From positions 1 to 64,000 of the IMG/VR virus record IMGVR_UViG_3300032323_001428: a stretch of DNA of 64,000 bases. The stretch is one strand, 5' to 3'. This document shows, piece by piece, positions 5,758 through 56,714 of the stretch; position 1 is the first letter of the stretch; each line of letters opens with the position of its first letter. Source of the DNA: a virus. The position numbers and the translations under genes were made by a program. The notes under the pieces were generated by a model. That model was not told the DNA's origin and searched no databases. It worked only from the letters and a program-made list of their open reading frames with translations.

Positions 5758-6420
5758 TCAGGACTCATCTAGAAGAATTCCATATTTTTGTATGTGGTAT
5801 CTAGATTTTTTAGTTTCATCTACAGCAGTTTTGATGCAATCATAAACAATATTATTATATTTTATTCTTTTTGCTCTTGGATTTTTCCCACCAGATATAT
5901 TAACATCCACAATACCTTTATTCCAAGGAACTCTCCCTTGTGTTGCTTCACTTATTTTTAGTTTAGTTTCTTTGGAATGATTTTTACCTTTTCTATTCAT
6001 TTTTGGTTTATTTTTTATTTCCTTTGCTAATTGATTTTTCCTTTCAAAAGAATTTCTAGGAATACCTTTATTGGACTCGCCTATTCTTTTTTTGTGAACT
6101 TCTGTTAAAGATTTACCCAATCTTCCTTTTTTCCTATTGTGTATGTCTATATCATTCATAACTTTAGCAGAACATCCTTTACCTCCACTAGTTTTATTAT
6201 GAAGTATTCCTGTTCCCAAATCTTTTCTTCCAAATACAGAAATCATATAGACCTCGTGCCTAAATGCTTCATCTTCTATTAGATTTTGTTTTAGTAACAA
6301 TATTCTGTCTTTTGGTGGTGGATAAAATCCATTATGTTTTTGGTGTGCTCTTCTCCCTTTACCTTTTCCAATATAATATGGTGTTCCATCTTCACGCAAA
6401 TATGCGTAAGTATAATACAT
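5758..6420 (-). CDS. GIY-YIG homing-type endonuclease with NUMOD3 repeats
   Basis: A 220-residue protein. It opens with the GIY-YIG fold: '[22 protein letters not shown]' (YAY and YYIGKG motifs) and then '[26 protein letters not shown]', with the conserved Glu in HEV. Two or three NUMOD3-like DNA-binding repeats follow ('KRIGESNKGIPRN', 'LKISEATQGRVPW'), then a NUMOD1-like end. It is free-standing between the baseplate operon and gp32. The N-terminal 90 residues are very like those of the gene at 25005-25775, so the two are recent paralogs. A promoter-in-hairpin element precedes it (6428-6510). Confidence 0.85.
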   Translation of the reverse strand: MYYTYAYLREDGTPYYIGKGKGRRAHQKHNGFYPPPKDRILLLKQNLIEDEAFRHEVYMISVFGRKDLGTGILHNKTSGGKGCSAKVMNDIDIHNRKKGRLGKSLTEVHKKRIGESNKGIPRNSFERKNQLAKEIKNKPKMNRKGKNHSKETKLKISEATQGRVPWNKGIVDVNISGGKNPRAKRIKYNNIVYDCIKTAVDETKKSRYHIQKYGILLDES

Positions 6421-6427
6421 TTCTGCT

Positions 6428-6510
6428 CTTTAGTTACTGCATTAGTATTTATACAAGAAAAGGAGCAAAAATGCTCCTCTTCCCACCTTTAGAGATTGCA
6501 GTAACTTAAG
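6428..6510 (-). promoter_or_regulatory. Inverted repeat enclosing late promoter and terminator
   Basis: Arms 6428-6441 and 6497-6510 pair over 14 bp with one mismatch. Between them, on the minus strand, are a 7-bp hairpin (6461-6478, AGGAGCA/TGCTCCT, which can terminate the gp32 transcript) and a late promoter TATAAATA (6446-6453). The promoter-proximal arm abuts the AGAG ribosome binding site and ATG at 6420. Read-through RNA would fold the arm away; late RNA starts just before it and stays open. Confidence 0.7.
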
Positions 6511-6520
6511 GCATCACTAT

Positions 6521-7417
6521 TTATTCTGCTGCTAAACGCGCAAAATATGCAAGTGTATCATCATCCTCGTCATCACTAGAAGCAGAAGGACGAACTGAAA
6601 CAGATTCCTTTACAGGACGTGAAACTTCATCTTCTTCCTCTTCACCAATCGTCTCGGGGTCTTGGTACTTAGGAGTTCCTTTAATACCAAGTGTATAATC
6701 AAGACGTTTCTTCAAATCTTCATAAGACTTGAACTCACTTGGAGAAACAAAATCATTCAAGTTGTTGAGTGATTTATAGATTGTTTCCAGTTCATCATCA
6801 TCTTCAAGAAGAGCAGAAGATGGTGCAAACTCCGACTTATCGTAGTTCCAATAACCATCTTTCTTTACCAACTTCAATTTGAAATTAGCACCCTTCCAGA
6901 AATCAAAAGGATTGATTGGTTCTTCATCATCAAACTCTGGTTGCATAGAAGCCATAATCTTATCAAAGATTTTCTTACCAAACTTATAAAGGAACACTCG
7001 TCCTTCATTCGCAGGGTTCACAGGGTCTTTTACAACATAAATGTTTGCGAAATAAGAAAGCTTACGCTTACGATCACGAACAATGTTTTGATTATCCTTA
7101 CTACCAGTATTCCAAAGTTCACGGTTTGCTTCACATACAGGACAGTTTTGTCCCAAAGTAGTGAGGCAATTATCAATCAACCAACCACCAGTTCCTTGAA
7201 ATGCATGAGACCAAACCTGTGCCCAAGGTAGATCACAACCTTCGGGAGCAGGAAGAAAACGGATTACAGCAGAACCAGTTCCACCCTTATCCATTACAGG
7301 TTTCCAAAAACGATCATCATCTTTGGAACCACCGTCGTTGAGTTTCTCAACTTGTTTGATGAGTTTCTCGGTCAAAGAACCCATCTTGGATTGCTTTTTA
7401 AGATCAGCAAAAGACAT
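6521..7417 (-). CDS. 32: gp32-like single-stranded DNA-binding protein
   Basis: A 298-residue protein with gp32 architecture: a basic N-terminal cooperativity segment, a core with a zinc site visible as His71, Cys84, Cys92 and Cys95 (SH...NC...NCPVC), and a very acidic C-terminal tail ending 'DDEDDDTLAYFARLAAE' for binding replication partners. It coats ssDNA in phage replication, recombination and repair. gp59 (its helicase-loader partner) lies upstream with one gene between. A strong sigma70-like promoter precedes it, fitting early or middle expression. Confidence 0.95.
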   Translation of the reverse strand: MSFADLKKQSKMGSLTEKLIKQVEKLNDGGSKDDDRFWKPVMDKGGTGSAVIRFLPAPEGCDLPWAQVWSHAFQGTGGWLIDNCLTTLGQNCPVCEANRELWNTGSKDNQNIVRDRKRKLSYFANIYVVKDPVNPANEGRVFLYKFGKKIFDKIMASMQPEFDDEEPINPFDFWKGANFKLKLVKKDGYWNYDKSEFAPSSALLEDDDELETIYKSLNNLNDFVSPSEFKSYEDLKKRLDYTLGIKGTPKYQDPETIGEEEEDEVSRPVKESVSVRPSASSDDEDDDTLAYFARLAAE

Positions 7418-13054: not shown

Positions 13055-13426
13055 TTAAGATGCATTATTTCTTCTTGGTCTATAGTTATATAGATTTAAA
13101 TTTTCTTCTGGTTTCATCCATTTTACTATAGCATCCCTTTTTGCTTCTGTAAAGAAGTCTTGATTATAATACCACTGTTCCCAAGGAGTATGTCCCTTAG
13201 ATTGATTACAAGAATGACAGCAGGCAATTACGTTAGTCTTAATGTCCAATCCACCCTTACATTGGGGAGTAATATGGTCTAGTGTGATATTGTCTTCTGA
13301 TTTACAATAGGCACACTTATGTTCCCATTGTTCTTTTATAATCCTCCTCCACATTCGTTTTGCTTCTGCTTTACTAGTCGTTTCGAGATTAAACAAGTAG
13401 TCCTTAAACGAATGTAGAGGAATCAT
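13055..13426 (-). CDS. HNH homing-type endonuclease
   Basis: A 123-residue protein from ATG 13426. HNH core: 'HKCAYCKSEDNITLDHITPQCKGGLDIKTNVIACCHSCNQSKG', with paired cysteines (38/41 and 70/73), the catalytic His51 in LDH, Asn65 and His71. It is free-standing, downstream of a broken structural gene remnant. A TTG at 13438 is in frame, but the ATG at 13426 sits in a hairpin with a late promoter (13421-13453), which marks it as the regulated start. Confidence 0.8.
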   Translation of the reverse strand: MIPLHSFKDYLFNLETTSKAEAKRMWRRIIKEQWEHKCAYCKSEDNITLDHITPQCKGGLDIKTNVIACCHSCNQSKGHTPWEQWYYNQDFFTEAKRDAIVKWMKPEENLNLYNYRPRRNNAS

Positions 13427-13453
13427 AAGTTTTTGCAACTTATGATTATTTAG
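13421..13453 (-). promoter_or_regulatory. Start-codon hairpin next to late promoter
   Basis: An 11-bp perfect stem, 13421-13431 with 13437-13447, contains the HNH start codon (complement of 13424-13426) in its 3' arm. The late promoter CTAAATA (complement of 13447-13453) overlaps the upstream edge. RNA started about 6-7 nt after the promoter would lack about half of the 5' arm, weakening the stem; read-through RNA would form it fully. Confidence 0.65.
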
Positions 13454-13911
13454 AGATTAAACTTACGTCTGTATGCTTCAAAGTTTATTTGAATTTCTTC
13501 ATTTGTTAATTCACGATTATAAATCATCACATTGTTCCATAAGCAATCATAATTACTTGTCCCTGTTCCAAATATTTTATCCAAATTAATTTCATCAGAG
13601 TTGTTCCAATCATTCAAAGAACCTAACGTTTTAGTAGATGCGTTTGTAGATATAAAAGTATAATAGTTTGTTGTTACTCCAAAAACAACAAAAGTCCAAT
13701 CACTAAATGATACTGTTTGTGTTGATGGTATGGGAGTATTAGAAATACTAGTGGTTGGATAAGATCTACCATCTCCCCAAATAATTCTTACAGCACCTTG
13801 TCCACCAGTTCCACCATTTCTTACAAAATTAATTCCCAGAGTAGTCTCTGGTCTTGTTCCTCCACCTCCACCATAACTTAAACTATTAATATATGAGAAA
13901 ATATTTTTAAA
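13450..13911 (-). pseudogene. 3' remnant of a tail/structural protein gene
   Basis: The minus frame is open from after a TAA at 13914-13912 to TAA 13450 but has no ATG until near its end. The translation has a Gly-rich stretch, 'GAVRIIWGDGRSYP', then a beta-rich domain with 'SFSDWTFVVFGVTTNYYTF' and 'LWNNVMIYNRELTNEEIQINF', the concanavalin/LamG-like end seen in large phage fibre or baseplate-decorating proteins. It is a C-terminal piece without its body. Its stop overlaps the HNH late promoter. Confidence 0.65.
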
Positions 13912-17094: not shown

Positions 17095-17795
17095 CAGTAT
17101 TTCTCCAATTTATAAACACCATTTTTCTCCACAATCGCAGAGCAAGTATCACACCAATCTCCACAACACATATACATCACCTTACCAAAGTTACGAATAT
17201 TTCCAGAATGTATGTGTCCGCAAATTACACCAGAATATTTCTTATCTCTTTGAGCACAATAAGAAGCAATATCGGTCTCATATTGATTGATATAATTCTT
17301 TCCTCTTACACTATTCTTCAGAGCATAAACCAAAGAGAATCGGAAGAACCTTTCCAACCAAATACTTAAGGGTGTAATTAATTCATATCCTTTATTGAAC
17401 ATCAGTTGCTTCCAAGACCCAGAAGAATACTCTGAATACTTATCTCCGTGAATACAAAGAAACTTATTTCCCTTTGAGTCCTTATGAACATACTCATCAA
17501 CCATCTTAAAGTTCTTGTGTTCAAAATCAGTATAACGACGAATCATTCCTTCGTGATTACCAAGAATATAAACAACTTCTGTTCCTTTCTTTGCGAGATT
17601 GAGAATCTGATGAACACATTCGGTATGCTCTTTGGTCCAACGAGTGTTATATCTTTCCATACAATGAATATCAATAACATCACCAACTAAAACTAATTTC
17701 TTAGTCTTAAGTTCTTTTAGAAATTTTAGAAACTTTTCAGTATTACATCTTGGAGTTCCTAGGTGAATATCACTGATAAAAGTTGCGTCGTACAT
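17094..17795 (-). CDS. LpxH-like metallophosphoesterase
   Basis: A 233-residue calcineurin-type phosphoesterase. The metal-binding blocks are 'ISDIHLGT' (DxH), 'LVGDVIDIHC' (GDxxD), 'ILGNHEG' (GNHE), 'FLCIHGDKY' and 'GVICGHIHSG' (GHxH). The overall layout is that of UDP-2,3-diacylglucosamine pyrophosphatase (LpxH)-like proteins. In a phage it might cleave lipid A precursors, nucleotides or modified glycans; substrate unknown. Confidence 0.8.
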   Translation of the reverse strand: MYDATFISDIHLGTPRCNTEKFLKFLKELKTKKLVLVGDVIDIHCMERYNTRWTKEHTECVHQILNLAKKGTEVVYILGNHEGMIRRYTDFEHKNFKMVDEYVHKDSKGNKFLCIHGDKYSEYSSGSWKQLMFNKGYELITPLSIWLERFFRFSLVYALKNSVRGKNYINQYETDIASYCAQRDKKYSGVICGHIHSGNIRNFGKVMYMCCGDWCDTCSAIVEKNGVYKLEKY

Positions 17796-18731: not shown

Positions 18732-19270
<539 letters not shown>

Positions 19271-20020
19271 AGCCACGATGTTGTATGTCTCTTCTTCTTG
19301 TCCGAACTTGTAACCATAATTCTGCGATTCAGTTTCAGTAGTTTCACGAACTAGTGAAGAAGTCACCAGCGAACCGTGCATCGCAGAGAACAATGAACCA
19401 CCGAACACACCAGCAACTCCAAGCATGTGGAATGGGTGCATAAGGATGTTATGTTCTGCTTGGAAGACAAGCATATAGTTAAAAGTACCAGAAATGCCAA
19501 GTGGCATAGCATCAGAGAAAGAACCTTGACCGAAAGGATACACAAGGAATACGGCACTCGCAGCAGCAACAGGTGCTGAGTAAGCAACGCAAATCCAAGG
19601 ACGCATACCTAGACGGTAAGAAAGTTCCCATTCACGACCCATATAAGCATAAATGCCAATGAGGAAGTGAAATACAACAAGTTGGAAAGGTCCACCATTA
19701 TAGAGCCACTCATCAAGACTTGCTGCTTCCCAGATAGGATAGAAGTGAAGACCAATAGCATTAGAAGAAGGAACAACGGCACCAGAGATGATGTTGTTTC
19801 CGTACATTAGAGAACCAGCAACTGGTTCACGAATGCCGTCAATGTCCACTGGTGGGGCACCAACGAAAGCGATAATAAAGCAAGTAGTTGCAACCAATAA
19901 AGTTGGAATACATAATACACCAAACCAACCAACATATAAACGATTGTCAGTTGAGGTTACCCATTGGCAGAATTGTTGCCAGTAGTTTGTTTGTTTTTGT
20001 AAGGCAATTGTAGCAGTCAT
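19271..20020 (-). CDS. psbA: psbA exon 1 (photosystem II D1, N-terminal part)
   Basis: Encodes residues 1-250 of D1 from ATG 20020 ([20 protein letters not shown]). It includes membrane helices A-D, '[24 protein letters not shown]' (redox-active Tyr and Asp region) and '[23 protein letters not shown]'. Spliced D1 is 359 residues, the normal length. The phage copy keeps photosystem II repaired during infection. An in-frame ATG at 20071 would add 17 residues not seen in D1 and lies in the leader, so 20020 is chosen. Confidence 0.97.
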
Positions 20021-20180
20021 TTGAATTAAAGGGGTAGTAAATATGAGTTCGGGGGAACGAACTGGTGACATTATTCCTACACCACCCTCCAGTGTAGGTA
20101 AAAAGACGTATTTGAATTCCCATAGGTCTTGGTTATCGGGAATGTAAGAAATCGTAAAGTTTTATCTTGATTTCCTAACT
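20021..20180 (-). ncRNA. psbA 5' leader, PhotoRC-II-like structured RNA
   Basis: The roughly 160-nt leader contains a 7-bp hairpin (20076-20082 with 20092-20098) whose 9-nt loop reads TGGAGGGTG, plus an upstream conserved segment (AAGTTAGGAAA..., ...CTTTACG). The same hairpin, with one compensatory pair change, occurs before the gene at 21084-21353. Structured psbA leaders of cyanophages are known as the PhotoRC-II motif; membership is inferred. The loop holds a Shine-Dalgarno-like GGAGG. Confidence 0.65.
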
Positions 20181-20214: not shown

Positions 20215-20814
20215 TCAGCATAAATACTCATCTTTATTTTTTCTGGACCAAGTATGAGACTGGCAGTGTTTCTTCATACTTTCACTTCTTTTATCTAAAC
20301 TTTCTTGAGAAAAAACTTGTTGTGCTCTTTTTTCCTTTATTTTCTGTTTTGCTTCTTCAGTATGAGATTTTCCTTCACAACCTTTTTGGGGTCCAGGTTT
20401 AAGATGTAGTTCATAATCAAACTTTGAGCATTCACAAATAGCCCTTTTGACTTGGTGTTCTTTTAGTCCAAGTAAATCAGCAACTTCTTTTCTTGATAAT
20501 CCTGATTGACGATATTTAAGAATAGAAAGTTCTTGTTGTGTTGGTTCAGTTTTCTTTGGAGGTTTGCCTCTTTTTTCAGTTGAGTTTCCTTTGCTTTTCT
20601 TTGCCCAGTTGATTGCTTGTTTATCGTGAATGAGTTTATGAGTTGCTGGATGATAAACATAAAGATGCTCTGGAATGTTTCTACCACCTTCACATCTTGG
20701 TGGATTATGATGAACATCAATACACTTCATCTGTTCATCAGTAAGTCCATAATGTTCTTGGGCAACCTTACGATAGTTATGCCTATCAGTAGAAAGAACA
20801 ATAGCAGAGCACAT
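20215..20814 (-). CDS. HNH homing-type endonuclease beside psbA
   Basis: A 199-residue protein from ATG 20814 (MCSAIVLSTDRHNYRK). Its nuclease core is 'CIDVHHNPPRCEGGRNIPEHLYVYHPATHKLIHD' (HH...N...H). An HTH-like segment follows ('ILKYRQSGLSRKEVADLLGLKEHQVKRAI'), then NUMOD3-like 'GKSHTEEAKQKIKEKR'. In S-PM2 a free-standing nuclease (F-CphI) next to psbA mobilises the psbA intron; this gene occupies a similar role by position, though I cannot tell whether it is homologous. The gene ends at the psbA -35 box. Confidence 0.75.
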   Translation of the reverse strand: MCSAIVLSTDRHNYRKVAQEHYGLTDEQMKCIDVHHNPPRCEGGRNIPEHLYVYHPATHKLIHDKQAINWAKKSKGNSTEKRGKPPKKTEPTQQELSILKYRQSGLSRKEVADLLGLKEHQVKRAICECSKFDYELHLKPGPQKGCEGKSHTEEAKQKIKEKRAQQVFSQESLDKRSESMKKHCQSHTWSRKNKDEYLC

Positions 20815-20818
20815 AAAA

Positions 20819-20856
20819 AACTCCAAACCTACTATTATTTAGGTAGGTTTGGAGTT
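20819..20856 (-). promoter_or_regulatory. Inverted repeat with late promoter in loop
   Basis: Perfect 14-bp arms (20819-20832 and 20843-20856, AACTCCAAACCTAC type) enclose a 10-nt loop that is essentially the late promoter CTAAATA (complement of 20836-20842). The 3' arm carries GGAG, the ribosome binding site of the HNH ATG at 20814. Read-through RNA hides it; late RNA starts at about the 3' arm and exposes it. Confidence 0.8.
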
Positions 20857-21353: not shown

Positions 21354-21487
21354 TATTTTTATAAATAAATGACGGTTACATTATGTCCTGCACCACCCTC
21401 CAGTGCAGGGATGAGAGATGCTTTACTTCTGATGATCTCGGTTACAGAAGGTTACGGAACGTAAAGATTTGTCTTTGTTTCCTGACT
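21354..21487 (-). ncRNA. Second PhotoRC-II-like leader RNA
   Basis: A leader homologous to that of psbA. The 7-bp hairpin at 21387-21393/21403-21409 has the same TGGAGGGTG loop, and one stem pair is changed from A-T to G-C on both strands of the stem (covariation). The 5' part AAGTCAGGAAAC...CTTTACG also aligns. It precedes the 89-aa gene. Confidence 0.65.
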
Positions 21488-22319: not shown

Positions 22320-22681
22320 GACACATAACTCCCGTTCTGCTTTTAGCAACGGGAGTCATTTGTACTCCTGCTTATGCTAATAGTGTTGTGCCTAATTTCA
22401 CCAGAGGAACTATCAATGCTACCACAGAATCAACTACACGGATTGTAGAAACCATACGCCAGGTGGAATACTCAACTGGCACATCTTATACTGTAACTGG
22501 AACCAATATTAATATTCCTGGCACTCCATCTCCTGGAGCAAACTACACCATTATAGACCAAGGTGCTCCGTTCCAATTTAGTGAGACATATCTCGGAACT
22601 GGATTGGCAAAAGAAACATGGATAGACAGAACTACAGAAACAAATTCAACTACTACATCAATCTCTGTATTTACACAGTAG
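22316..22681 (+). CDS. Secreted protein related to preceding gene
   Basis: 121 residues with signal peptide (MRHITPVLLLATGVICTPAYA|N). The mature part has 'YTVTGTNINIPGTPSPGANYTIIDQGAPFQFSETYLGTG', parallel to the preceding protein's TNI/FSFSE pattern, and both end in a 'ISVF/LSVF' strand. Overlaps upstream stop by 4 nt. Confidence 0.6.
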   Translation: MRHITPVLLLATGVICTPAYANSVVPNFTRGTINATTESTTRIVETIRQVEYSTGTSYTVTGTNINIPGTPSPGANYTIIDQGAPFQFSETYLGTGLAKETWIDRTTETNSTTTSISVFTQ

Positions 22682-23214
22682 TGTTGTCTGGTAGTGCGTT
22701 TGCTCAGAGCGCCCCAGCACCATCTAATACCAACATAGCAGGACCATCAGCATCGGCAACGGGTAACGTGACGAATCAGGCAGTACAGGTCTTACAAGGT
22801 CCTTACGCAATGAATACTTATGGTGGTGGTGTAAGTTGCCAGGGACCAACATTCTCACTATCTCCATTTGCTTTGAATAGTGGAAATGGTAGTGATGACC
22901 CAGAGACATTTGATTCAAGAAATTATAACTGGGGAATCTCTGCGGGTTTCAATATACCTTTGGATGGTATGTTGATGGAACTTTGTAAGTCAAGAGCAAA
23001 AGTAGAAATAGCAAGACAACAAAGTGAAGTTGAAAAAAGTCGTTTAGATTTTGAACTCGTGAGGGCAAGACTTTGTTTAGAAATGATAAGAAATGGTGGG
23101 TTTTTTCATCCACAAAGTCCTTATGGAAAAGTATGTGCTGATATAGTTGGCCCATCGCCTAATGGTTACTTAATGACTGGAAATGGTACGGTTGTTTCTA
23201 AAATTAAAAAATAG
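22618..23214 (+). CDS. Secreted protein with helical C-terminal region
   Basis: 198 residues. N-terminal hydrophobic stretch ending 'GSAFAQS' looks like a signal peptide. The C-terminal half has 'MLMELCKSRAKVEIARQQSEVEKSRLDFELVRARLCLEMIRNG', a long helix with paired cysteines. Overlaps the upstream gene by 64 nt; a start inside (GTG near 22680) would remove most of the signal peptide. Function unknown. Confidence 0.6.
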   Translation: MDRQNYRNKFNYYINLCIYTVVLSGSAFAQSAPAPSNTNIAGPSASATGNVTNQAVQVLQGPYAMNTYGGGVSCQGPTFSLSPFALNSGNGSDDPETFDSRNYNWGISAGFNIPLDGMLMELCKSRAKVEIARQQSEVEKSRLDFELVRARLCLEMIRNGGFFHPQSPYGKVCADIVGPSPNGYLMTGNGTVVSKIKK

Positions 23215-23272
23215 GTTAGACTTTGAACTTCTAATTTTTATAAATAGTAGTAGAAGTTCAAAGTCTAACCTA
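23212..23272 (+). promoter_or_regulatory. 22-bp perfect inverted repeat around late promoter
   Basis: Arms 23212-23233 and 23251-23272 are exact reverse complements over 22 bp, with a 17-nt spacer holding TATAAATA (23239-23246). The left arm starts at the stop codon of the upstream gene; the right arm ends in the A of the GIY-YIG ATG (23272). Read-through mRNA would lock the start region into a very stable hairpin. Late RNA, starting about 23252, has only the right arm. Confidence 0.85.
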
Positions 23273-23871
23273 TGGGTAAAATATACTTAATTATTAACAA
23301 TATTAATAATAAAATGTATGTAGGACAAACAAAACATTCAATAGAATGCAGATTTAGAGAACATCAGCAACCAAGTAAAAAAACTGCAATAACACAAGCA
23401 ATTCAAAAATACGGTAAAGAAAACTTCACAATTGAACTTTTGGAAGAATGTAGTATTCATAATCTTGATGAAAGAGAAACATTTTATATTGAAAAATACA
23501 ACTCATATAAAGAAGGATATAACAATACAATTGGTGGAGGGAGTCAGTACATATCTCACACACCAGAGGTAAAACAAAAATTAAGTATTGCTGCAAAAGG
23601 AAAACTTGTTGGAGATAAAAATCCAGCAAAAAGACCCGAAGTAAGAAAAAAAATTAGTGATTCACAAAAAAGAAGATTTGAAAGTGGTGAATGGAAAAGT
23701 CCAACAGAAGGTGGTCATACGCAAGAAGCATTGGAGAAAATGAGAGCAAATCAACCAGATAGAAGTGGTAAAAATAACTCTAGATATGGAGTGAAGATGA
23801 GTGAAGAAACTAAACAAAAAATTAGAGAAAAGCAATTAGCAGCACAAGCAAGAAAACGAAAAAATGAGTGA
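23272..23871 (+). CDS. GIY-YIG homing-type endonuclease
   Basis: A 199-residue protein with a classic GIY-YIG module: 'GKIYLIINNINNKMYVGQTKHSIECRFREH', 'AIQKYGKENFTIELLEECSIHNLDERETFYIEKYNSYKEGYNNTIGG' (catalytic Arg, Glu and Asn). NUMOD3-like repeats follow ('KQKLSIAAKGK', 'KKISDSQKRR', 'KQKIREKQLAAQ'). It is inserted in the secreted-protein operon and overlaps the next gene start by 8 nt. Confidence 0.9.
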   Translation: MGKIYLIINNINNKMYVGQTKHSIECRFREHQQPSKKTAITQAIQKYGKENFTIELLEECSIHNLDERETFYIEKYNSYKEGYNNTIGGGSQYISHTPEVKQKLSIAAKGKLVGDKNPAKRPEVRKKISDSQKRRFESGEWKSPTEGGHTQEALEKMRANQPDRSGKNNSRYGVKMSEETKQKIREKQLAAQARKRKNE

Positions 23872-25004: not shown

Positions 25005-25775
25005 TTAGTTTAAAATACTCTTACTATATATTCTTCCTATTACCCATTCTGAACTTGGGGATTCATCACTATTGAATAGTTTTTCAACTACACCATTATT
25101 CCACCACTTCCGTCCAGTCATATAATTTCTCCTCATATCCTTAAATTCCTGCGAACGAGGTATTCCTTTTTGAACTTCTCTTTGTTTTTCTATATGTTCT
25201 TTTGATTTTTTCTTTCCAGATAAAGCATTACTTATATTCCTTTTAGTTTCTTCCGAATGAGTTCTACCTTTTTGAGACTCACTCATTTTTCTTTTAGTTT
25301 CTTCTGAAATAATTTTACCTTTATTTGATTGACTCATCTTCATCTTATGTTCTTCAGAAAGAATTTTTCCCCTTTGAGAATCACTTATGCGTTTTTTAGT
25401 TTCTTCCGAATGAGTTCTACCTTTTTGAGACTCACTCATTTTTCTTTTAGTTTCTTCTGATGCGGTTCTTCCCTTATTAATTTCACTAAATTTTTTTCTT
25501 GTTTCACTACTTGGAACCCAACCAGAAGTTCCTTCACCACCATCAGTAAGATTTCTCAATATACCTGTCCCCAAATCCTTTCTACCATAAACAGAAATCA
25601 TATAAATTTCGTGTTTTATTGCTTCTTGTTCTGTTAGATTTCTTTTTAGATATATTATCCTATCTTTACTTGGTAAAGGCACAATTCTTTTTTTAACATA
25701 CAATCTAAACCCCTTACCTTTACCGATGTAATAAGGTGTTCCATCTTCCCGCAAATATGCGTAAGTGTAATACAT
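25005..25775 (-). CDS. GIY-YIG endonuclease with long NUMOD3 array
   Basis: 256 residues from ATG 25775 ([24 protein letters not shown]). The GIY-YIG domain is nearly that of the 5758-6420 gene. About six NUMOD3 repeats follow ([20 protein letters not shown] type), partly from a 67-bp exact DNA duplication. Other in-frame Mets upstream lie in the regulatory hairpin. The final segment '[14 protein letters not shown]' is NUMOD-like. Confidence 0.85.
25241..25460. repeat. 67-bp direct repeat within NUMOD3 array
   Basis: Positions 25241-25307 and 25394-25460 are identical, 153 bp (51 codons) apart, and encode two matching pairs of NUMOD3 repeats. This shows recent expansion of the DNA-recognition array. 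Confidence 0.85.
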
Positions 25776-25788
25776 TTCTACTCTGTTA

Positions 25789-25858
25789 TGGTTCGCAATA
25801 CTATTTATACAAGAAAAGATGCCCGAAAGCACCTTTTCCACCTGATAGATGCGAACCA
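25789..25858 (-). promoter_or_regulatory. Inverted repeat enclosing terminator and late promoter
   Basis: Arms 25789-25797 and 25850-25858 (TGGTTCGCA/TGCGAACCA, 9 bp) differ in sequence from the element at 6428-6510 but have the same contents in the same order: small GC hairpin, T-rich tract, TTGTATAAATA (25802-25809), second arm, AGAGTAGAAATG. Confidence 0.75.
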
Positions 25859-25873
25859 CACAGGTATTGTTAT

Positions 25874-26248
25874 TTATCGTTCTTTCAAATCTTTATTATA
25901 AATTTCTCTTCTTTTAGTATTAGTATCTCCAATATCTTTATGAGATTTTACTGACCTTCTTGCTTGTCCAGTAGTCAGTCCAGTCCAATCTTTTTTAAAC
26001 TTATGTCTTTGTTTTCCTGAAACTTTTTTGCCACTTTCATCATCGTGTGCGATTTTTAACTTACCATATCTTTCCAAATTTTTATCAGATGGTGTTTTAT
26101 CTGGATTTTCAACTCCAGTAGATATTCTCTTTGTTCTGTTTTTCTCTCTTGGAGTAAATCCAGATTGAAGTGGTCTTTTTGGATTATCCCACTCTACTTT
26201 ACCTTCAACCAACTCGCATTCAGCAATAAACTCTCTAAAAGTTTTCAT
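25874..26248 (-). CDS. Candidate internal head protein with capsid-targeting N-terminus
   Basis: 124 residues. N-terminus [16 protein letters not shown] matches the T4 internal-protein capsid-targeting sequence (MKTYQEFIAE), which directs proteins into the prohead and is cut by the gp21 protease after (L/I)xE. The rest is Lys/Arg/Asp-rich, suited to packing with DNA and injection. What it does in the host is unknown. Confidence 0.65.
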
Positions 26249-49653: not shown

Positions 49654-49837
49654 ATAGTTTGTTAAGAATTACAACTACGAAGTTTATTTAGAATCCCAGC
49701 ATTCTTACGAAATACTGGGATAATTGGATAGACCTCCCTGTTTGTGCATCGTTGAGAGGCATGGGAGGTGTGGGATTTATAAGAAGTTTGGACCTCCTTC
49801 ACCCGTGAACGTACTATAAGGCATCAGGGCAATAAAG
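49654..49837 (-). promoter_or_regulatory. Structured leader and promoters of porin gene
   Basis: A sigma70 promoter (TTGACT 49836-49841, 17 bp, TATAGT 49813-49818) starts a leader of about 150 nt. It contains an ACCTCCC/GGGAGGT pairing around 49740-49775, an 11-bp hairpin (ATCCCAG type) near 49694-49722, and late boxes TATAAATC and CTAAATA. No ORF is evident. Confidence 0.6.
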
Positions 49838-55537: not shown

Positions 55538-55952
55538 ACATCACATTTAATCCTGGTTTTAATACTTCATATTCTCCATTGTTAAAAATAACACCAGAAT
55601 AATAGTTTTTACCATTAAACTCACAGAACATATTATATTCTCTACTATCTTCAAATGGAGTTATATCTATTAAGTTTCCATAGGTATTTTTCCAGATACT
55701 ATGGTATATCGCACACCCATAACTTTCATCATCAATATCTGTGATTAAATAATAACCACTTATCTTTTTCCCCCCATAAGTATTTGTATAATGATTTACA
55801 TTATTGTGGCAGTTTGCATCAGCACATAAAGGTTTAACTACCACAGGAACTTTCAATAGAATATGAGAAAAACTACAATACTCCTGAAGTTTTATAACAC
55901 ACTCATCTTCTGGTAGTGATATTCTAAATTTTCTTTTCAATACTCCATCCAT
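55536..55952 (-). CDS. 138-aa conserved protein, unknown
   Basis: Contains 'PLCADANCHNNVNHYTNTYGGKKISGYYLITDIDDESYGCAIYHSIWKNTYGNLIDITPFEDSREYNMFCEFNG'. Conserved Cys, His and Asn with a 'HSIWK...LIDITPF' core suggest a small enzyme fold, but I do not know the family. Its start overlaps the GIY-YIG gene stop by 29 nt. Confidence 0.6.
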   Translation of the reverse strand: MDGVLKRKFRISLPEDECVIKLQEYCSFSHILLKVPVVVKPLCADANCHNNVNHYTNTYGGKKISGYYLITDIDDESYGCAIYHSIWKNTYGNLIDITPFEDSREYNMFCEFNGKNYYSGVIFNNGEYEVLKPGLNVM

Positions 55953-56658
55953 TTGTTCTAGGTCCTTTTCTATTATACTTTATTGCGGCAATCATAGTAG
56001 CATATGAGATATTTTGAGATTTACAAAACTCTTTTAATCCACCAACAATAACATATTCTTTATTTTCTGGAGATGTGAGTTTCCAAATTTTTGCAGATGG
56101 TGGTTTAAAACCTGCAGCATATCTTTCCTTTGCCTTTTCACTTATTTTTCTTTTTCTTTCTTCACTACAAGGAATACCATAACTTGGATTATTCTCTCCC
56201 GCAACCTTTTGACTTATTTTCCTTTTTGTTTCTTCACTATGTTTTTTAGGTCCATATCCACCAACAGAAAGTTGCAAATTTCTTCTTTTTTCTATTTGGT
56301 CTTCCCACTTATCACCATATATTTCTTGGTATGTTTTTCCTCTATGATTTGGTGGTCTTGAGCTTTCACAAATATTTGTTAATATTCCACCCTCATCATA
56401 TCGTATTCTTCCATATTTTTGTATTAATGATTCTTCATAAAAATAAGCATCATTTTCATTTTCAAAATATTCAACTATTTTGACTTCTGGTTCATACCCC
56501 TCCTTTCTTATTTTTTGTATTTTATTAAATTTTCTTTCATTATCACTTTTTGCTCTTGTTTTTTCGGACAAATGAAAATAAACCCGATCATCTTTTCCCT
56601 TTCCAACATAAAAAGGCAGATTGACTCTTGGGTCTATTAATTCATAAACATAATACAT
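55924..56658 (-). CDS. GIY-YIG homing-type endonuclease next to nrdB
   Basis: 244 residues from ATG 56658. 'YYVYELIDPRVNLPFYVGKGKDDRVYFHLSE' (YVY and FYVGKG motifs), 'VEYFENENDAYFYEESLIQKYG' (Glu), then NUMOD3-like 'EETKRKISQKVAGENNPSYGIPCSEERKRKISEKAK' and a NUMOD1-like C-terminus 'VIVGGLKEFCKSQNISYATMIAAI'. Inserted directly downstream of nrdB, a favoured homing target in T4-like phages. Confidence 0.9.
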   Translation of the reverse strand: MYYVYELIDPRVNLPFYVGKGKDDRVYFHLSEKTRAKSDNERKFNKIQKIRKEGYEPEVKIVEYFENENDAYFYEESLIQKYGRIRYDEGGILTNICESSRPPNHRGKTYQEIYGDKWEDQIEKRRNLQLSVGGYGPKKHSEETKRKISQKVAGENNPSYGIPCSEERKRKISEKAKERYAAGFKPPSAKIWKLTSPENKEYVIVGGLKEFCKSQNISYATMIAAIKYNRKGPRTNGWSIEKKI

Positions 56659-56660
56659 AA

Positions 56661-56714
56661 ACAAGAAACTGAACTCTAATACTATTTATATAATATTATA
56701 TTTCAGTTTCTTGT
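56661..56714 (-). promoter_or_regulatory. 13-bp inverted repeat enclosing late promoter
   Basis: Perfect arms 56661-56673 and 56702-56714 (ACAAGAAACTGAA type) enclose TATAAATA (complement of 56683-56690). The 3' arm ends 2 nt before the GIY-YIG ATG at 56658. Read-through from nrdB would fold the start region into a stem; late RNA would not. Confidence 0.8.

Follow-up and report, generated by a model that had tools for sequence, protein, structure and literature searches.

Hairpin leaders around a putative late promoter precede free-standing homing endonuclease genes in cyanophages

Free-standing homing endonuclease genes (HEGs) in cyanophages recurrently have a leader in which two complementary arms flank a late-promoter motif. 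Judged from their sequence, these elements are very probably the leaders of mobile HEG cassettes, late-gated by the pairing of the arms around the promoter. In RNA that reads through from upstream, the two arms would pair and bury the region of the ribosome binding site (RBS), the AUG or both, and it is proposed that a start buried in this way keeps the nuclease from being translated early. Between the arms is a putative late promoter of the gp55 type, N[A/C]TAAATA. Its transcripts would start some 6 nt further on, where the 3' arm begins or just ahead of it; they would then be without the 5' arm and hence translatable. Promoter activity, start masking and timing are what we infer from the leaders, the anatomy of which can be observed directly.

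Leaders in the window

The window is a stretch of 64,000 nucleotides from a 91,111-base IMG/VR viral contig, kin of Synechococcus phages (Kyanoviridae), and its features are collected in Table 1. Gene starts in the contigs were taken from a simple script, and some of them are wrong. When the 16 window genes that, by script, have NATAAATA at most 95 nt upstream of their start are ranked by pairing energy across the motif, the GIY-YIG/NUMOD3 genes 23272, 25775, 56658 and 6420 take the top four places.

The original prediction described a perfect 22-bp inverted repeat at 23212 that reaches the ATG of a GIY-YIG gene. This repeat is real and slightly longer, with 23-nt arms that are 100% complementary, a loop of 17 nt and a predicted fold of −33.5 kcal/mol, and the last base of its 3' arm is the T of ATG 23272. 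The match to the Megablast neighbour DSL-LC03 is restricted to genes upstream of this nuclease. Five more elements had been listed with it, and of the six those at 23212, 6428, 20819, 25789 and 56661 stand, while that at 13421, where TAAATA is outside the hairpin, does not. At 6428, 25789 and 56661, pairing arms flank TATAAATA ahead of the nuclease ATGs 6420, 25775 and 56658, all on the minus strand. The reading of each element as a single hairpin is correct for 23272, 56658 and 20814, which are plain, but incomplete for the composite leaders of 6420 and 25775, where a putative second late promoter further upstream, the 5' hairpin and the terminator are left unexplained.

The loop motif of the 20819 hairpin is CCTAAATA and not TATAAATA, and its 3' arm has GGAG 6 nt upstream of ATG 20814. 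The published late-promoter motif of cyanophages is NATAAATA (PMC2984593). In the cyanophage isolates W01-W07, W09 and W10, the fraction of sites with an ORF start 15-35 nt downstream is 39.6% for NATAAATA and 40.1% for NCTAAATA, compared with 3-4% for NG/NTTAAATA. That NCTAAATA is as enriched as NATAAATA supports CCTAAATA as a promoter at 20836-20843, and cyanophage late promoters would appear also to accept C at position 2, i.e., N[A/C]TAAATA. The 20819 hairpin is conserved in 13 relatives, in which the far upstream flank is different. The HNH-like motif of the 20814 protein comes from reading, with no match to an HNH profile, and no relatives of the protein were found among the isolates. 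Near this gene are a group I intron (19069-19321, minus strand) and two PhotoRC-II RNAs (20063-20157 and 21373-21464, both minus strand), a layout that recalls the cyanophage system of psbA intron and free-standing F-CphI. Elsewhere in the window, an abiF RNA (49732-49768, minus strand) has a score that exceeds the Rfam gathering threshold.

With the exception of 13421, N[A/C]TAAATA is placed between the arms in such a way that late RNA would lack the 5' arm. At 13421 the arms (13422-13431 and 13437-13446, −6.5 kcal/mol) are entirely downstream of TCTAAATA (13447-13454), from which it follows that a transcript from TCTAAATA would retain the whole hairpin; the locus was rejected as a member of the class, and its hairpin may be a chance palindrome. 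A seventh candidate on the same contig, at about 79.4 kb and thus beyond the window, is a good instance that was absent from the original list: an HNH gene (L287, start 15593, minus strand) with TCTAAATA within arms that include the ATG.

Table 1. Features of the hairpin leaders and their genes in the window
Feature	Position	Strand	Basis or remark
Gene upstream of 23272 hairpin	22618-23214		
23272 5' arm, plain hairpin	23211..23233	+	23 nt, 100% complementary to 3' arm; fold; begins within upstream gene's stop codon
23272 late promoter TATAAATA (putative), hairpin loop	23239..23246	+	Sequence; promoter class enriched before ORF starts
23272 3' arm, into ATG	23251..23273	+	Perfect complement; orthologues covary at 4 pairs
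GIY-YIG/NUMOD3 nuclease, 199 aa	23272..23871	+	Pfam PF01541, 1.3e-10
6420 Pu (putative), AATAAATA	6518..6525	-	Overlaps gp32 TAA stop; 52/52 in leader class
6420 P1, 5' hairpin, arm 1 in loop	6485..6512	-	Class fold and locus check
6420 arm 1 of long-range stem P2	6497..6512	-	Fold
6420 intrinsic terminator	6455..6484	-	GGAGCA..TGCTCC then TTTTCTT; sequence, fold
6420 Pd, late promoter TATAAATA (putative)	6446..6453	-	
6420 arm 2 of P2, into Shine-Dalgarno region	6425..6441	-	Fold
6420 NUMOD3 homing endonuclease gene	5758..6420	-	phrog_314
25775 Pu (putative), GATAAATA	25871..25878	-	Overlaps upstream TAA stop
25775 P1, 5' hairpin	25840..25865	-	ACCTG..CAGGT; L418, identical sequence
25775 arm 1 of P2	25850..25863	-	Fold
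25775 intrinsic terminator	25811..25839	-	Fold
25775 Pd (putative), TATAAATA	25802..25809	-	
25775 arm 2 of P2	25783..25797	-	Fold
NUMOD3 homing endonuclease gene, ATG 25775	25005..25775	-	
56658 plain hairpin, TATAAATA inside (56683-56690)	56661..56714	-	Outer 13 bp 56661-56673/56702-56714
GIY-YIG/NUMOD3 nuclease gene, ATG 56658	55924..56658	-	
20814 plain hairpin, CCTAAATA in loop (20836-20843)	20819..20856	-	14-nt perfect arms
HNH-like protein	20215..20814	-	HHNPP..H..H motif by eye; HTH by profile
Hairpin at start of short HNH gene, not counted as member	13422..13446	-	Promoter motif outside

Nuclease specificity and selection on the pairing

Five scans of viral contigs with nuclease proteins as queries gave 261 loci. 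When nuclease genes are picked by homology only and compared with other late genes that have the motif, an arm score of at least 11 across the motif is reached by 56 of 87 HEG leaders, against 5 of the 145 comparison genes (p=3e-25, with family members that are not independent), and four of these five high-scoring controls are endonucleases by PHROGs profiles. Among dinucleotide-shuffled 5' segments, 0.9% reach the score attained by 73 of 108 nuclease leaders, a set in which, unlike the homology-only set, some genes were first spotted through their own hairpin. The enrichment on which the original prediction depended is therefore present against shuffled sequence as well as against non-endonuclease late genes.

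A gene-blind scan of 11 genomes (ten phage isolates and this contig) gave 532 N[A/C]TAAATA sites with a downstream ORF start and 19 genes that score at least 11, of which 17 are nucleases when calls made from relatives or from motif reading are included, so that the signature is close to nuclease-specific. The 17 are of GIY-YIG, HNH and endonuclease VII-like types or belong to a KITFEEV-type family, some members of which match phrog_314; two of them (L298:1560 and L276:16459) are without a clear profile match of their own. No hairpin was detectable at a number of nuclease genes that do have the late-promoter motif, and miscalled start codons explain some of these cases. The orientation of the upstream gene was tried as a predictor of hairpin presence and was uninformative, gene starts often being miscalled. 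What stands of the claim of a general cassette at unlinked genes is a recurrent hairpin with a late promoter and a predicted start-masking fold, found in at least two nuclease classes; its extension to 13421 does not.

Other leaders and labels were noticed as well. The non-nuclease matches of the pairing scan include palindromes with TATAAATA on both strands, common to divergent late genes, in T4 (L346, about 17428-17479) and in Sf-CH5 (L340, about 1455-1526). In DSL-LC03 (L313:1196-1260) an HNH gene with a late-promoter hairpin directly follows GTGTAGCTCAGTTGGATAGAGCAACGG, which is like the 5' part of a tRNA, and this nuclease may interrupt a tRNA gene. A third leader type (L277:18263, L339:17671) has two pyrimidine/purine blocks, with arm 1 followed by a conserved TGCGTAAGTCCC before TATAAATA is reached, and stands ahead of nucleases marked by a stretch of 13 protein letters (not shown) in S-SRM01, Sf-CH5 and several viral contigs. 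Homing endonucleases of GIY-YIG/NUMOD3 type are annotated "translation initiation factor 2" at L265 (MW015081 62515-63273), L266 and L269, and this mislabelling occurs in S-SRM01, B23 and Sf-CH5.

Consider now how the arms have changed between relatives. Among orthologues of the 23272 leader, 94.7% of the pairs are kept and 4 pairs have changed on both sides, and in the 56658 family 7 of 11 pairs have changed on both sides (52 cells); in each case the covariation score is reached by 0 of 500 shuffles. Structure is thus kept while sequence changes, as had been claimed from the window alone. Stem mismatches on the sense strand are more often G.U than A.C (33 vs 14, binomial p = 0.008), and in the composite class the corresponding numbers are 12 and 1. 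That the arms covary and that G.U exceeds A.C together imply selection on the sense RNA.

A different reading is that the repeats act in DNA, as a palindromic operator at which the late promoter is repressed by the nuclease itself or by some other protein. The promoter is indeed within the repeat, and autorepression of I-TevI at an operator is established (PMC2988022), but an excess of G.U over A.C on the sense strand is not expected from DNA recognition, close relatives differ in arm sequence yet keep the pairing, and the same leader type is common to GIY-YIG and HNH proteins, so we hold the operator to be very unlikely. Chance palindromes, which an AT-rich window with many imperfect inverted repeats might suggest, are refuted for the class by the window ranking, the enrichment, the shuffles, the blind scan and the covariation tests, and their probability is close to nil.

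The gp32 locus bears on where the leaders come from. In HEG-free relatives, S-PM2 and S-SRM01 included, gp32 has a TGA end followed by a plain terminator, and the composite leader is absent; in HEG-bearing relatives there is a TAAATA end and then the whole leader. In one HEG-bearing case (L429) TGA is retained and ACTAAATA is found 10 nt further on. Since gp32 loci carry the leader only with the nuclease, the leader arrives with the nuclease. A role of TAAATA as boundary repeat of the cassette was rejected, as only 9 of 45 cassette 3' ends have one. It could be argued that the hairpins serve the upstream gene, as devices for RNA stability or transcription termination, and do not affect translation of the nuclease, as a genuine terminator is situated just upstream of Pd in composite leaders and a terminator is present at the HEG-free gp32 loci too. 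This is unlikely, because the plain hairpins at 23272, 56658 and 20814 are without a U-tract and include or abut the ATG, and because long-range arms that bracket a promoter are nearly confined to nuclease genes.

The effect of losing the 5' arm on the accessibility of the start can be predicted. At 23272 the predicted unpaired probability of positions −15 to +3 is 0.03 when the RNA reads through and 0.75 when it starts at the late promoter, while the mean goes from 0.29 to 0.56 for the whole set and from 0.47 to 0.58 for controls. The predicted stem over the RBS, the AUG or both in read-through RNA is strong at 23272, 56658 and 20814 and partial at 25775, where predicted accessibility changes only from 0.39 to 0.51. 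In some members of the composite class the core of the 3' arm stops about 11-14 nt upstream of the ATG, and masking may be partial there. Directly downstream of the leaders is a homing endonuclease gene, as in systems of the I-TevI/segB/mobE type.

Composite leaders and a predicted small RNA

The composite class comprises 52 deduplicated leaders from the viral-contig scan, selected by the pattern CTTTTCTTGTATAAATANTA alone. Every leader is laid out in one order: first Pu, the putative upstream late promoter, then the hairpin P1 and an intrinsic terminator, followed by Pd (TATAAATA), arm 2 and the ATG, with arm 2 complementary to the loop and 5' strand of P1. Pu is N[A/C]TAAATA in 52 of 52 leaders, with C at position 2 in 21, and is present also in both window members and nine isolate members of the class. 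The 5' stem-loop with a complementary loop and the intrinsic terminator are part of the predicted fold in 51 of 51 leaders, P1 starting 3-5 nt after Pu in all of them, although the leaders fall into few sequence types and cannot be counted as 51 independent cases. The stretch that begins with P1 and closes with the U-tract measures 48-61 nt. Of 51 downstream proteins, 40 are phrog_314 homing endonucleases, and nearly all the rest look like other GIY-YIG or HNH types.

As MAFFT misaligns the 3' strand of P1, pairing was assessed by swapping partners among leaders instead of by a covariance model. Swaps weaken the P2 core from −17.3 to −8.4, P1 from −7.4 to −5.4, the pairing of the P1 5' strand with the RBS-proximal region from −6.1 to −4.2 and the terminator from −11.9 to −8.5 kcal/mol, and the native mean is reached by 0 of 300 permutations. 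No Rfam family matched at the window leaders or at six composite loci, and no antiterminator pairing between P1 and the terminator is apparent by reading.

In T4 late promoters the TATA box precedes the start by roughly a turn of the helix (PMC2988020), and with this spacing the 5' end of a Pu transcript would fall at the first bases of P1. The added parts of composite leaders are most simply read as a second, short RNA, which Pu would start at the first base of P1 and the intrinsic terminator would end after about 55 nt. Given the complementarity between its loop and the Pd leader, such an RNA could act in trans as a late repressor of the nuclease. Tentatively, the predicted RNA may damp nuclease translation in trans as well as in cis. 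It is likewise conceivable, at somewhat less than even chance, that composite leaders are two-promoter circuits in which each mobile nuclease has its own matched small-RNA repressor. S-SRM01 (MW015081) has composite leaders ahead of genes at about 48536, 51348, 56059, 62515 and 192520. Six composite leaders of this phage show less cross-pairing than randomly drawn sets of six (P=0.007), which fits such private pairs, though relatedness is a confounder. Plasmid CopA and RNAI are short terminated antisense RNAs in which a hairpin loop pairs with the target leader; they are made from the opposite strand of their target, whereas the leader to which the predicted RNA is complementary lies downstream of it and has the same orientation.

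The rival account, by which Pu is inactive (its TAAATA being no more than the upstream stop or a trace of the insertion), P1 is a hairpin that happens to lie at a 3' end and the cis mask alone matters, comes close to an even chance, and action in cis only is about as likely as a small RNA in trans. The TAA of Pu is the stop of the upstream gene in 23 of 52 loci, and for the 21 Pu with C at position 2 the case for activity is the enrichment of such sites by itself. On the other side, TAAATA is invariant in 52 of 52 loci and always preceded by A or C, in agreement with the cyanophage late-promoter rule; in 29 loci the stop is elsewhere or no ORF is seen; TAAATA is absent from most cassette 3' ends and from HEG-free gp32 loci; and P1, which covaries, is at a fixed distance of 3-5 nt.

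Relation to known systems

In T4, I-TevI, and also I-TevII and I-TevIII, have leaders in which a hairpin sequesters the RBS of early read-through RNA and encloses a late promoter, and late RNA is without the 5' arm (PMC2988022). T4 segB and mobE of Aeromonas phage Aeh1 are free-standing HEGs with RBS-sequestering hairpins; for I-TevI the mechanism is established, and for segB and mobE it has been either proposed or demonstrated (PMC2988022 and PMC3014915). The comparison with I-TevI in the original prediction is apt, and as PMC2988022 lists the same mechanism for I-TevII, I-TevIII, segB and mobE, the general idea is not new. The late-gated leader is this known mechanism, here widespread in cyanophages. 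I-TevI is intron-encoded, whereas the genes considered here are free-standing cyanophage genes, and those of the composite class have Pu, P1 and a terminator in addition. While segB and mobE are single cases, here a module is repeated before many GIY-YIG and HNH nucleases and covaries across orthologues.

Related arrangements are known outside this group. In T4 e, soc and 49 (endonuclease VII), the Shine-Dalgarno sequence or the AUG is in an inhibitory stem on early RNA, and gene e has late promoters inside the 5' strand of the stem (PMC3014915). Endonuclease VII-like genes score here too (L280:7372, L281:3706), in likeness to gene 49, but e, soc and 49 are not genes of mobile elements, whereas the signature in these cyanophages is almost confined to nucleases. 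The seg43 gene of Aeromonas phage 25 has a stable hairpin just upstream of the RBS and not over it, a placement that resembles some composite leaders, and the excerpts of PMC2988022, from the open-licence PubMed Central literature, describe neither an upstream late promoter nor a complementary 5' hairpin for it. CfrI of cyanophage S-PM2 is an RNA of about 225 nt, antisense to psbA and an HEG (PMC2984593). It is, like the RNA predicted here, a cyanophage RNA tied to a homing endonuclease gene; the predicted one is of about 55 nt, on the same strand and before the gene.

Scattered T4 cases would in this way become a general cyanophage rule for free-standing homing endonucleases. Nucleases of unrelated classes share one kind of late leader, self-masking by prediction, which thus behaves like a module that can be separated from the rest of the mobile element. 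The signature predicts nuclease genes missed by annotation, such as those labelled "translation initiation factor 2", and the late-promoter motif of cyanophages would be revised to N[A/C]TAAATA. The predicted small RNA gives a named candidate for the cultured phage S-SRM01, and the leaders as a whole bear on how selfish DNA may limit the harm to its host phage.
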